Assembly: GCF_014698065.1 (NCBI RefSeq)
Contig: NZ_JACJSI010000011.1
Location: forward strand, 1-64,000
Reading direction: 5' to 3'
Length of the DNA: 64,000 nt
Source of the DNA: Nostoc flagelliforme FACHB-838
GTDB taxonomy: Bacteria > Cyanobacteriota > Cyanobacteriia > Cyanobacteriales > Nostocaceae
Shown in pieces: positions 8,537 to 56,170 of this stretch. Every line of letters begins with the position of its first letter. The stretch's first letter is position 1. The notes beneath the pieces are model-generated. The model saw nothing but the letters and a program-made list of their open reading frames with translations. It searched no databases and was not told the origin of the DNA. The translations under genes and the position numbers were made by a program.

Positions 8537-9290
8537 GTTTCAATCCCTAATAGGGATTTTATTGAATTGCAATTTATAGCTACAAAATTCATTCAAGGCG
8601 ACTTTTATGTTTCAATCCCTAATAGGGATTTTATTGAATTGCAATCATGCCGTCAGGGTCAAGATTAAAGTAATTAGCTGTTTCAATCCCTAATAGGGAT
8701 TTTATTGAATTGCAATGCATCAAATAAAGATTGCGCTGTTTTCTGCCATCTGTTTCAATCCCTAATAGGGATTTTATTGAATTGCAATGTCAATTCACGA
8801 TTTACTAAGATAGACATATTCAGTTTCAATCCCTAATAGGGATTTTATTGAATTGCAATATTATCCTCTATTTTTCCTATATATTCCCAAAGCGTGTTTC
8901 AATCCCTAATAGGGATTTTATTGAATTGCAATTCACACCACTTTTACCCTTTACTTCTCCATCCGAAGTTTCAATCCCTAATAGGGATTTTATTGAATTG
9001 CAATCACAATGACGAGAAGTGCTAAGAGCATAAGCAAAGTTTCAATCCCTAATAGGGATTTTATTGAATTGCAATTTTAGAAATCACTGAATCATATATA
9101 TCGAATAACTGTTTCAATCCCTAATAGGGATTTTATTGAATTGCAATATCGCATCTGAAGTCTCCGCCCGTTTCGATGCTTGGTTTCAATCCCTAATAGG
9201 GATTTTATTGAATTGCAATTCTCGAAGCTCTGAGTAAAGCTGTCCGATCGCATGTTTCAATCCCTAATAGGGATTTTATTGAATTGCAAT
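8537..9290 (-). CRISPR. CRISPR array, 11 repeats of 37 nt, 10 spacers
   Basis: Eleven 37-nt repeats that I read as identical, starting at 8537, 8609, 8680, 8752, 8823, 8896, 8968, 9039, 9111, 9183 and 9254. Spacers are 34-36 nt. On the plus strand repeats begin GTTTCAATCCCTAATAGGGA and end TTGAATTGCAAT. On the minus strand they end GGGATTGAAAC, giving the usual 8-nt crRNA handle ATTGAAAC. The array is therefore most likely transcribed on the minus strand, with the newest spacers at the right. The repeat contains the palindrome CCCTAATAGGG. No cas gene lies in this window, so the array must rely on Cas proteins encoded elsewhere. The repeat form is common among cyanobacterial type I and III systems; subtype cannot be set from it alone. 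Confidence 0.97.
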
Positions 9291-53260: not shown

Positions 53261-53581
53261 TAAGAGACTCCTGGCACTGCCGTAAAAAATTATTACCTCT
53301 TAATTGATCGTAACGTGTTGAGCGATGTAGGGCATGGGACATCGGGCATTAGACTTCTTGCATAAGTCGGGAAAAAGGGAAGGGGGAAGGTGGGGCCCCC
53401 TCTGGGGATAAGGGGCGGGGGAAAAGGTTTTGTATTGTCCACTTCCCCTTTAACCTTTAGCCTTTTCCCCCCTCTTGCAAAAAGCACTTTTGTAAGAGGT
53501 CTATTGATTATTTTCCTCTACTTCCCAGACCCCCTTATCCCCAGAGGGGCCCCACATTCCCCAGCCCCCAGTCATTTCACC
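53261..53581. other. Intergenic region with MITE-like element
   Basis: A 321-bp stretch largely filled by the element at 53350-53503 and by a copy of the CCCCTTATCCCCAGAGGGGC repeat. No gene. Confidence 0.45.
53350..53503. mobile_element. MITE-like element, TAGAC(C/T)TCTTGCA family, long form
   Basis: Ends TAGACTTCTTGCA and TGTAAGAGGTCTA are near complements, as in the shorter element in the cyclase pseudogene (14601-14704). The interior is purine-rich at the left and pyrimidine-rich at the right and includes the GGGGCCCCCTCTGGGGATAA repeat. About 154 bp, non-coding. Confidence 0.65.
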
Positions 53582-54655
53582 TTATGCGCTTGGTTGCTGA
53601 TCGGGAAACATACACTTGTCAGAATCACAACCACTAGGGCCAGCTTCTGCCATTTCGCCTAAATCGTAGCGGCTTAAGACTGCACAGAAATCATCTGTTT
53701 TGCGCCGTGCTTTAACTTCTTGATTCAAGCGAGTATAGGTTGATTTGTCTATTGGTTCAAATGGCAAACGTGGGAATGATTGCAAATCGTCAAAACGAGC
53801 TAAAAGAGCGGCTGAAATATATCCTTCATCATTCTGGATAGTTTCGTAGATTCGCTGTCCTAAAGGTTCGATTTCATCAGAGCGAAGTTCTAAAGTTGCT
53901 GATGTGTTGTGAGTCACATACCAACGTTGAACCTGAAGGACAAAATCAAATTGGGCTAAGACTGAAAACTTAGAAACATCAATTTCATCAGCACCTGGTA
54001 AATCAGCCCAAGATACAGAAACAGGAATTTCTACTAACCATTCACTCACCCGTGAGTCAAAAGGATCGTTGAGCAAATTGCCCTGTTCATCTTTATCTGA
54101 TTGAGAGGGAATGACGTTGTAACCGTAGTCAATACAAGCTAAGGCTACTGGGTCATTTTTGCCGAAGGTGATGCGGCGAATAAATCTTTGCGCTTTCGGG
54201 GGATGCCATCCTGAACTAGCATTAGTTAATAATGCCTTCGTGCCACTAGGTTGAACTGTGGTACAGCGATTTGGACGTTTGAAATTATGGCGATCGCAAT
54301 AATCCCAAACTACCCGATGTACAATATCTTTCCAAGAACTTAGATATTTTTCTTCCTCACGCTTGAAAGCTAATCCTTGTGGAGTTGCAGGTCTTCCGGC
54401 TTCCCACCAGCGCAGCCAATCAACGCCAAAAGCATGGACAAAGAAATCAAATAAACCTGTAAAAGAAACTCCTACAATCGGGTCTAATTCACGGCTGTAT
54501 TGATAGCGTGGTTCCAAAAATTTGTGATTTAAAAGTACTGCTACAGATAGCGCCCCAGCAGTGAAAGCTTCCTCCTGTTCTTTGTAGTTATATGGATCGA
54601 TTTGATTAAGGTGAACCTCTGACAAATTGCAGTGGAAATTACTACCGATGATTTC
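53582..54655 (-). CDS. nrdJ: Class II ribonucleotide reductase, exon 2
   Basis: The 3' exon of nrdJ, 357 residues beginning EIIGSNFHCNLSEVHLNQID. This is the conserved continuation of the NPCG-E motif that ends exon 1; the reading frame is kept exactly across the intron. Conserved parts are GVSFTGLFDFFVHAFGVDWL, RCTTVQPSGTKALLTNASSG with the PSGT phosphate loop, and the C-terminal redox pair in SGCDSDKCMFP. The adenosylcobalamin-dependent enzyme reduces ribonucleotides for DNA synthesis with or without oxygen. No intein is seen, unlike some cyanobacterial relatives. Joined length with exon 1 is 766 residues. Confidence 0.92.
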   Translation of the reverse strand, partial: EIIGSNFHCNLSEVHLNQIDPYNYKEQEEAFTAGALSVAVLLNHKFLEPRYQYSRELDPIVGVSFTGLFDFFVHAFGVDWLRWWEAGRPATPQGLAFKREEEKYLSSWKDIVHRVVWDYCDRHNFKRPNRCTTVQPSGTKALLTNASSGWHPPKAQRFIRRITFGKNDPVALACIDYGYNVIPSQSDKDEQGNLLNDPFDSRVSEWLVEIPVSVSWADLPGADEIDVSKFSVLAQFDFVLQVQRWYVTHNTSATLELRSDEIEPLGQRIYETIQNDEGYISAALLARFDDLQSFPRLPFEPIDKSTYTRLNQEVKARRKTDDFCAVLSRYDLGEMAEAGPSGCDSDKCMFPDQQPSA

Positions 54656-54943
54656 CAGATTTGTTACCCTAGAGGCTTTTTATCCCCTAGTTCTACTGCT
54701 TGATTATTCGCAGTAGCTCCGCGTACCTTTTACAGATGTGACTTCAGATAATAAAAGTATTTTTCACATCCGCCCCCGCACTCTTGGAGAGATTATATTC
54801 TAGACACCAATTTTCGATGTAATCTAGTTTCACTCTCTACGCTGTACGGTATCAAAGGCTTTTTACTTCCTTTGATTACCACGGGATTAGCATCTCAGCT
54901 TTCCCCGTTTTTGCGAGGTTTTTAACGTGAGGCAAAATCAATT
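54656..54943 (-). ncRNA. Group I intron in nrdJ, 288 nt, no ORF
   Basis: The intron separates codons for NPCG and EIIGSNF. It obeys the group I rules: the 5' exon ends in U (CCGTGTGGT) and the intron ends in G (...AAATCTG). The internal guide GCCTCAC, 10 nt into the intron, pairs with exon GTGTGGT with a U-G wobble at the splice site, giving a P1 helix with one mismatch. Translation without splicing would hit TGA after one extra codon. It has no homing endonuclease gene. I did not model the full core (P3-P8). Confidence 0.85.
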
Positions 54944-56170
54944 ACCACACGGATTTAAACCGTAACGAGCTAAACGATGTTCTAACTCATTAACATCAAG
55001 ATTTGAATAACGTTCTTCTAACCACTGTTTTGCTATTCCTTGTTCATAAGCTTGTAAAAATTCAACTTTCAAAGCTTGTGTTGGCAGCAAATCAATGTTT
55101 GATCGCGCGACGGCTTCACCTGCCCATTGAATCGCTCCCTCGCCACTATAATATTGTTTGCGGACGGCATCAAGACATTCTTCTAAGGTCGGCTTGCAGT
55201 GAAAAACTCTCGTATGGTTCGCCATCCTGAGTGCATCACGCTCCGGATCAATTCGCCAGTTGCCATTTTCATCTTGTTGCCATAAATTATCTTTGGCCGT
55301 GGCTGCTAGGTTATCGCCAGAATCAAACTGACGCATCCCCGCGCTTCTTCGGATATTGCCTGCAACAATTGTTACAGCAGCCTGATCGATTAACAGACAA
55401 CATTCAACTGAACTTAATTGTCGTCCTCTAGCTTTATTCAGGATGGAGGCACAACGCTGATAAAGTCCGGGCAATTTCACAGGATTAGCAACTCCTCCAA
55501 AGCCGTTGAGAGTTTCTCCTGCTTTTCGGACATCACTGATATCAACTAATACTTCAACTTCTGCTGAAAACTGTTCATTCGTGGAGAGTTCTAATAGGGC
55601 TTGATATGATTCAACCCAACCTTCACGGCTATCTCCAACGTGAATAATGACGTTATTGCCTTCTATATGAGTTTGAGTATATTCACGTCGCAGTTGCACA
55701 GGAGTGCTGCCAATTTCACCTTGGACAGTGACATTCAGTTGATTACGGATAGGAGGTAATTGGTTAATAAATTGTGGTTCTAGGACGGCTCCAGTACCAC
55801 AGCCCATCATTGCCAAATCCATCATTAATCCGAAGGCACTCCAGTCTTCGAGATTGGTAGAGGTGCAATTATAAGCCCCGGAAAAGTTCTTAGGCTTGGT
55901 TATCCAGTCTGTACCACCAACCCATAGCCAGCGCCCACTGGGCATGGCTTTCAAGTTGCGCTGCATCTTATCCAGTATGGCAGCTTCTTCTTGAGTTAGC
56001 TTTCCCAACTCCACTAAACCGAGTAGAGTGCGATCGCATACCTCATCCCATGTTTCCCTTAGTCCCGCCTTTGTGCGACGGCTATAGGTTCTAAAAAATA
56101 CGGGATTAGCAGCCGGTGCTGTTTCGGGAAACTTTGCACTCTGGCGTTTTCTTTCTAGCTCTCGAACCAT
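54944..56170 (-). CDS. nrdJ: Class II ribonucleotide reductase, exon 1
   Basis: The 5' exon of nrdJ, 409 residues starting MVRELERKRQSAKFPETAPA. It contains the substrate and catalytic part, with GRWLWVGGTDWITKPKNFSG, NCTSTNLEDW with the first active-site Cys, MMDLAMMGCGTGAVLEPQF, and GNIRRSAGMRQFDSGD. It ends in LNPCG, whose Cys is the thiyl-radical residue and whose next Glu is supplied by exon 2. Unspliced, the frame ends with one extra Asn and a TGA. Combined with exon 2 it forms the monomeric, B12-dependent reductase typical of cyanobacteria. Confidence 0.93.

Follow-up and report, generated by a model that had tools for sequence, protein, structure and literature searches.

Ribonucleotide reductase genes of phages are crowded with introns and inteins, and the coincidence of the two is an old idea, as the title of a 1998 article cited in the available part of one account attests ('Lightning strikes twice: intron-intein coincidence'; PMC3653736). 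In cyanobacteria, Meng et al. described in 2007 a group I intron within RIR of Nostoc punctiforme PCC 73102, according to excerpts of later papers (PMC1995217, PMC3984707, PMC12702839), RIR being the ribonucleotide reductase (PMC1995217, PMC12702839). Group I introns of Arthrospira and of nrdE genes in Bacillus are also cited in the available passages of PMC3984707, and split ribonucleotide reductase enzymes are mentioned for lichen Nostoc in those of PMC5987646. With regard to mobility, excerpts describe I-Ssp6803I, which belongs to a cyanobacterial tRNA intron, as a homing endonuclease of the PD-(D/E)XK type (PMC3943268, PMC6083498).

The locus examined here lies in a window of 64,000 nucleotides, the whole stretch of DNA that was analysed (Nostoc flagelliforme FACHB-838, contig NZ_JACJSI010000011.1, positions 1 to 64,000), in which a 288-nt insert interrupts the class II ribonucleotide reductase gene nrdJ. 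The insert shares genus, gene and group I identity with the intron of PCC 73102, although the likeness is one of description in the excerpts and the site may differ; further, the PCC 73102 intron carries an insertion sequence, as the 2007 title states, whereas the window intron does not (PMC1995217, PMC12702839). The Arthrospira and Bacillus nrdE introns resemble that of the window in being of group I and in interrupting ribonucleotide reductase genes of bacteria, but nrdE of Bacillus is class Ib and nrdJ is class II (PMC3984707, in part). The crowding of elements in phage reductase genes is likewise shared with nrdJ, but in the available part of that account neither NPCG|E introns of class II genes that span cyanobacteria, phages and Bacillota plasmids nor any exclusion between elements was seen (PMC3653736). 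The window intron is thus a further copy of a known intron type and not a new kind. What appears to be new is the type of endonuclease in its relatives together with the scar in the window, the pattern of one element out of three, and the presence of NPCG|E introns in class II reductases of Bacillota plasmids and phages. An endonuclease of this type at NPCG|E, element exclusion and cross-phylum sharing of the site were not found in searches of open-licence papers, which is weak evidence of absence.

The interrupted nrdJ gene

The minus strand encodes nrdJ. Exon 1 (54944..56170) holds codons 1-409 and ends in NPCG, and exon 2 (53582..54655) holds codons 410-766 and the stop; they match TIGR02505, the adenosylcobalamin-dependent (B12-dependent) ribonucleoside-triphosphate reductase, with E-values of 2.5e-104 and 1.4e-114, respectively. 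Excision of 54943..54656 (288 nt) fuses NPCG to EIIGSNFHC in a single 766-aa frame. The first-pass annotation had placed an intron between the Cys-Gly and Glu codons at 54656-54943, with a continuous joined protein of 766 residues, and had expected gene callers to report two truncated reductase genes. The coordinates and the joined frame proved right, and the unspliced gene would indeed be read as two ORFs, one of 410 aa and one of 347 aa.

An in-frame UGA occurs at intron codon 2 (54938..54940, minus strand), and an early in-frame stop is retained among relatives. Across 75 intron loci the first such stop falls at codon 2 in 62, codon 3 in 12 and codon 7 in one, and is TAA (43 loci), TGA (25) or TAG (seven). 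This may hint, in rows that are related to one another, that a stop as such is retained rather than one particular stop; placed at codon 2, it would halt ribosomes that enter the intron.

An early stop directly after NPCG could also mean that nrdJ is simply broken and that no splicing takes place. However, both exons are open and conserved, and the structure and exon pairing of the insert are maintained across many genera. Further, the window's genome has one single-copy nrdJ locus, and neither an intron-less nrdJ copy nor, with the PF02867 and PF13597 profiles, a class I large subunit or class III enzyme was found in it. PF02867 fails to detect nrdJ itself in this genome, and a second reductase, if very divergent, could therefore escape detection. 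Given the conservation and the lack of another detectable reductase, splicing of the intron in the cell is the expected state, and an inactivated gene is highly improbable.

Two other features of the window were noted. Downstream of nrdJ, an imperfect inverted repeat (53383-53562) has 41-nt arms that are 71% complementary and 23-nt core arms that are 96% complementary; possibly a small mobile repeat or a terminator, it is the cause of spurious microRNA matches in L001. A CRISPR array at 8537-9290 (minus strand) gives 11 matches to the repeat family CRISPR-DR5, at 56.7 bits each.

Group I architecture and exon pairing

Judged from its sequence, the insert of 288 nt belongs to the group I introns, as the first-pass annotation had claimed. 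A home-made covariance model, R1, built from 17 sequences that include the window intron, scores 291.1 bits over 54933-54656 (minus strand, as are all intron features below). The core (P1, P3-P7, P7.1, P7.2, P8, P9 and P9.2) was drawn by hand on an alignment of 23 homologues, whose intron ends were deduced from the exon 2 frame. Helices P3 to P9 covary in this alignment: 96.4% of cells are paired, and 40 of the 64 core pairs show compensatory changes on both sides. The covariation score is 0.455 versus 0.150 in shuffles (0/500) and 0.051-0.101 when the partners are slid. As the structure was drawn from the window sequence, it has an advantage over its slid counterparts, but it is in the other sequences that the compensatory changes are found. 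The intron also folds with a z of -4.87, and none of 100 shuffles was equally stable.

Absence of a P3-P8 core had been named beforehand as evidence against the intron; the core is present. P3 joins CCUCGC (54913..54918) to GCGGGG (54779-54774), with 100% of cells paired and changes on both sides in five of six pairs. The P4-P5-P6 domain (54848..54908) is supported by covariation and comprises P4 (54908-54904/54885-54881; paired in 100% of cells and showing compensatory changes), P5 (54900-54898/54891-54889) and P6 (54880-54869/54858-54848; 95.7-100% paired). P7, formed by GCGUA (54838..54842) and UACGC (54725-54721), is paired in 100% of cells, with both-side changes in two of five pairs; between clades GCGUA/UACGC becomes GACUA/UAGUC. 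P8 with its loop (54734..54771) is the weakest helix, at 79% of cells paired, and is where longer relatives carry the endonuclease gene. The 54669..54716 region holds P9 (54716-54693), with both-side changes in five of seven pairs, and P9.2 (54690-54669). No P2 was seen in the window intron. Stems P7.1 and P7.2 between P7 and P3 mark subgroup IA; such extra hairpins occur here (54787..54837), with covariation, which suggests that the intron belongs to this subgroup.

A covariance-model search had been proposed as a check, and it gave no direct confirmation. Rfam gave no group I match to the window at the gathering score, nor at E<10 in 54500-55100, and its group I model RF00028 matched only two of 14 other intron loci, L019 (33.7 bits, E 7e-5) and L021 (26.5 bits), against a cut-off of 50 bits. 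The weak best Rfam matches, SAM_alpha (20.5 bits) and RAGATH-19, lie below their own cut-offs and were dismissed. Taken alone, Rfam would have denied a group I intron here.

The internal guide and the terminal bases that the first-pass annotation had described were confirmed in the sequence. In P1 (54926..54951), the exon end CGUGUGGU (54951-54944) pairs with the guide GCCUCACG (54933-54926) at seven of eight positions, with one UxU mismatch and a U-G wobble at the splice site. The last base of exon 1 is U, as in 75/75 intron loci, and the last base of the intron is G, as in 23/23 introns. Moving the splice by one base, to 54657/54944, leaves the protein identical but violates this U/G rule, and 54656/54943 is preferred for that reason. 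The codons CCG TGT GGT precede the splice site in 75/75 intron loci; among 80 named loci, they are found in 45/45 with the intron, 5/17 empty ones and 1/9 with intein B (see below).

On the other side of the junction, the P10 strand GAUUUU (54934..54939) pairs at 6/6 positions with the start of exon 2, GAAAUC (54655-54650). Among the 75 loci, P10 is T-A in 61, C-G in 11 and unpaired in three, and the 45 named cyanobacterial intron loci include one mismatch of C with A and one of G with A. Coevolution of P10 within the named cyanobacteria looked striking at first, but the tree needs only one change between GAA and GAG to explain it, and it therefore does not count as independent evidence.

The predicted splicing pathway would begin with the guide paired both to the radical-cysteine codons (P1) and to the start of exon 2 (P10). 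After guanosine attack at U|A, the exons would be joined at the terminal G, and NPCG|E would be reconstituted.

Related introns in plasmids and phages

By BLAST, the start of the intron is also present in plasmid reductase genes of Rossellomorea and Pontibacillus, whose introns score 91 and 93 bits with R1; the insert likewise lies at NPCG|E, ahead of EQPLAPYSVC. A search of viral contigs with an exon-guide pattern returned 54 stretches, 44 of which were dropped as judged not to lie at NPCG in a reductase. The 10 retained lie at NPCG in a reductase frame, and six match R1 at E<=0.1, L255, L264, L273 and L276 being those that do not. A 39-nt junction query in phages met only chance Klebsiella phage matches.

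The two plasmid and 10 viral loci form a set of 12 in which exon pairing can be compared. As the search pattern fixes CCGTGTGGT and GCCTCACG, their sameness in the viral loci is by construction. P10 is absent from the pattern, and its covariation in this set is thus independent support for the exon-guide pairing: the third pair is kept in 12/12 (T with GAA, C with both GAG exons), the fourth in 11/12 (G with C, T with A) and the first in 10/12. A terminal G is found in 12/12 of these introns.

Several neighbours of this family were noted. L238, which lies on a 199-kb contig with phage-like genes, carries a free-standing HNH endonuclease gene (L238:4245-4793, minus strand) that ends just before a phage nrdJ with an ORF-less intron of the same family, and this gene is a candidate for homing the intron in trans. 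Clostridioides phage phiCDIF1296T has a related group I intron between its tail and tape-measure genes (L228:2488-2745, plus strand; R1 171.7 bits); its record shows nothing but a terminator there. The Pontibacillus plasmid bears a second R1-like intron (108.5 bits) beside genes annotated as hypothetical (L227:876-1108, minus strand). Finally, genes for the RNA ligase rtcB are split by sequences that match R1 at 52-70 bits (L158:349-2570, L159:2258-4480, L155:739-2977, L154:2328-3900). Three of these hold a 269-aa ORF, LAGLIDADG-like in L158, the one checked, and L154 has none; the best NCBIfam model for the rtcB halves is 'RtcB_rel_intein2'.

A homing endonuclease in relatives and its likely scar

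Longer forms of the intron were found among the first 110 loci. Six rows, which represent four distinct introns (L011=L058, L015=L067, L016 and L069), measure 1153-1159 nt and contain an ORF of 326-344 aa. The 896-nt intron of L071 carries a GIY-YIG gene at a different place. Among 13 reductase loci from the class search, nine have an intact relative of the endonuclease and two have none; of the other two, one is cut by a contig end and one (L152) is broken.

On sequence criteria, the ORF of these relatives is a putative homing endonuclease of the PD-(D/E)XK type that resembles T7 endonuclease I. The resemblance lies in the N-terminal part (E 0.03 with a single sequence, 2.3e-4 with a profile), which also matches PHROG endonuclease and resolvase families and is followed by a NUMOD3 motif. 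The catalytic residues E26, P57, D58 and K70 are invariant in 12 endonuclease sequences, and E68 is nearly so. An AlphaFold model, made from three sequences only, has a mean pLDDT of 37.5. This protein and I-Ssp6803I both bring PD-(D/E)XK catalytic residues to cyanobacterial group I introns, but the likeness to T7 endonuclease I and the NUMOD3 motif may set it apart from I-Ssp6803I (PMC3943268, PMC6083498).

The window intron has no ORF, in agreement with the first-pass annotation, and holds only what is likely the scar of an endonuclease C-terminus (54667..54768, minus strand). Read in the old frame it gives KYFYYLKSHL*KVRG..DKKPLG, which corresponds to endonuclease residues 291-326 (E 2.4e-5, 59% identity, one internal TAA). 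The scar overlaps the ribozyme core, so the protein-level match is partly shared RNA. It could be supposed from this that the lineage of the window never had an endonuclease, and that the apparent scar is shared ribozyme sequence in a frame open by chance: the C-terminus of the gene overlaps P7, P9 and P9.2, which are obligatory in every relative, and a clade of the L019 type lacks a scar-like P8 loop. However, the similarity extends beyond the core and into the P8 loop (YYLKSHL versus YYLRSYV), with L007 (RKEFLYYLKSHMQNVRG) in between; L005 fuses both ends of the endonuclease gene (SVGVRVIS..FYDYLQSYVQNVRG); and the window intron clusters with the endonuclease-bearing L058 and L067 in a starred group of a quick tree from a short alignment. 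A primitively ORF-less intron is, on this evidence, unlikely.

The preferred reading, loss of the gene, is consistent with graded intermediates, namely L007, L005, L014/L076 and L152. The 506-nt introns of L014/L076 retain a piece of the endonuclease gene, and L007 and L005 keep longer remnants in the P8 loop than does the window intron. The latter is likely at a late stage of the homing cycle: its ancestor would have been mobile, with the T7-endonuclease-I-like PD-(D/E)XK homing endonuclease encoded in the P8 loop, and the gene would later have been deleted. No copy of the endonuclease was found by tblastn in 50,697 phage records, and a close-relative search of viral contigs gave 12 pattern stretches and no relative.

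Distribution and inheritance

The first-pass annotation had called such introns uncommon, but matches at E<=0.001 occur in 63/145 genomes of the family and 39/53 of the genus, and one of group I had, by the excerpts cited above, already been published from RIR of N. punctiforme. At the level of the class, R1 with strict filters finds the intron in 31/388 genomes. In N. punctiforme NIES-2108 (L036), an intron of 288 nt occupies exactly the position of the window intron. The set of 110 loci counts some genomes twice, and key counts were redone on 80 named loci or the genus set.

Among the 33 of 39 Nostoc introns that could be parsed (six were left out), intron and exon distances correlate at 0.51 (0/999), which indicates that inheritance dominates, with some exchange. 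The flanks within 45 nt of the site do not track the rest of the gene (0.10, 145/999). The annotation had made an ORF-less intron dependent on past or trans-acting mobility. Of these, past mobility is favoured by the endonuclease in the P8 loop of relatives and by the likely scar. Continued homing through an endonuclease supplied in trans could account for the fact that the nearest introns to that of the window, 2.1% apart, come from strains 9.0-9.7% apart in exons, as well as for the frequent changes of intron state on the exon tree, and intact endonucleases do exist in other genera. However, the only endonuclease match in the window's genome is the scar itself, and no other copy was found there; with the correlation above, this makes trans-acting mobility quite improbable.

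From anatomy, covariation, conservation and distribution, we infer splicing in the cell, past homing and loss of the endonuclease gene, and hold with high confidence that the nrdJ insert is a splicing group I intron, descended from a mobile endonuclease-encoding form. It would now be mainly inherited, with some exchange among strains.

Three elements in one active-site stretch

The intron, after Gly409, has two inteins as neighbours: A, before Cys408, and B, before Cys418, examples of which were verified with Pfam and NCBIfam. The 80 named loci comprise 43 with the intron alone, 17 empty, nine with B, six with A, three with A and B, and two with the intron and B. A never occurs with the intron (0/9 A loci versus 45/71 others, p 3e-4), and B does so less often than expected (2/14, p 7e-4), by tests that ignore relatedness. 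On an exon tree of 81 rows, made by a quick method with the site columns excluded, 19 changes are needed for the intron state, 14 for B and nine for A.

In Nostoc, all 51 typed genomes have exactly one element (intron 39, B nine, A three), none being empty or double; the two untyped among the 53 are G550, whose contig ends inside exon 1, and G519, with no nrdJ match. Of the 14 Nostoc genomes without an intron match, 12 show one long open frame. Away from the site the types are intermixed, mean distances being 0.0995 within intron strains, 0.0958 within B strains and 0.0962 between them. At up to 30 nt from the site, the distance between types rises to 0.233 versus 0.095 and 0.144. This near-site excess of 0.113 compares with at most 0.007 in farther windows and is reached by 0/2000 label permutations. 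An exon haplotype of about 60 bp thus follows the element type, and the rest of the gene does not. Strain pairs only 3.2% and 3.5% apart carry different elements. The nearest relative of each of the nine B strains, by the rest of the gene, is an intron strain, as would be expected anyway with the intron in 39 of 51. The flanks of B vary more than the gene average, and the identity of B inteins (17 of 18 sequences parsed) is 90-98% within Nostoc and 80-88% with other genera, both as expected if B entered several times.

Turnover of elements in Nostoc would, from these sequence patterns, reflect displacement by homing with short co-conversion. The main rival is that selection for splicing context produces the haplotype, since P1 and P10 require CCGTGTGGT and GAAAT and inteins are sensitive to the residues beside them. 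However, masking the P1, P10 and intein-junction positions still leaves an excess of 0.101 (0/2000 permutations, which take no account of relatedness), and unpaired codons at about -27 and +15 differ too (GCT/CAG; AGT or TCT/GCT). Selection on context as the explanation is possible, if doubtful. The intein-bearing L214 and L224 partly retain the intron-type flanks TTA GCT CGC .. CCG TGT GGT.

Displacement with co-conversion forms part of a wider reading that we regard as evenly balanced. Three unrelated self-splicing elements would compete for the 30-bp radical-cysteine stretch of nrdJ, with displacement by homing in Nostoc and co-conversion confined to some 30-50 bp of either flank. Unable to home any longer, the ORF-less intron would be repeatedly erased by the downstream intein, replacement being commoner than clean loss, and the intron family would have passed between cyanobacteria, phages and Bacillota plasmids at precisely NPCG|E. 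Elsewhere in nrdJ, extra in-frame insertions lie between residues 275 and 276 (L144, L145, L149, L163, L224 and L225) and at 547/548 (L145 and L163); these are probably more inteins.

Implications

In practical terms, automatic annotation will go on splitting the essential nrdJ gene at the intron. The Nostoc series, from endonuclease-bearing to stripped introns, makes the homing cycle traceable within one gene. Alternative elements at one site in strains 3% apart would make intron-intein competition and co-conversion directly measurable. Finally, a single guide that fits the class II active-site codons of plasmids, phages and cyanobacteria hints at how the conservation of a catalytic site permits such elements to cross between phyla.
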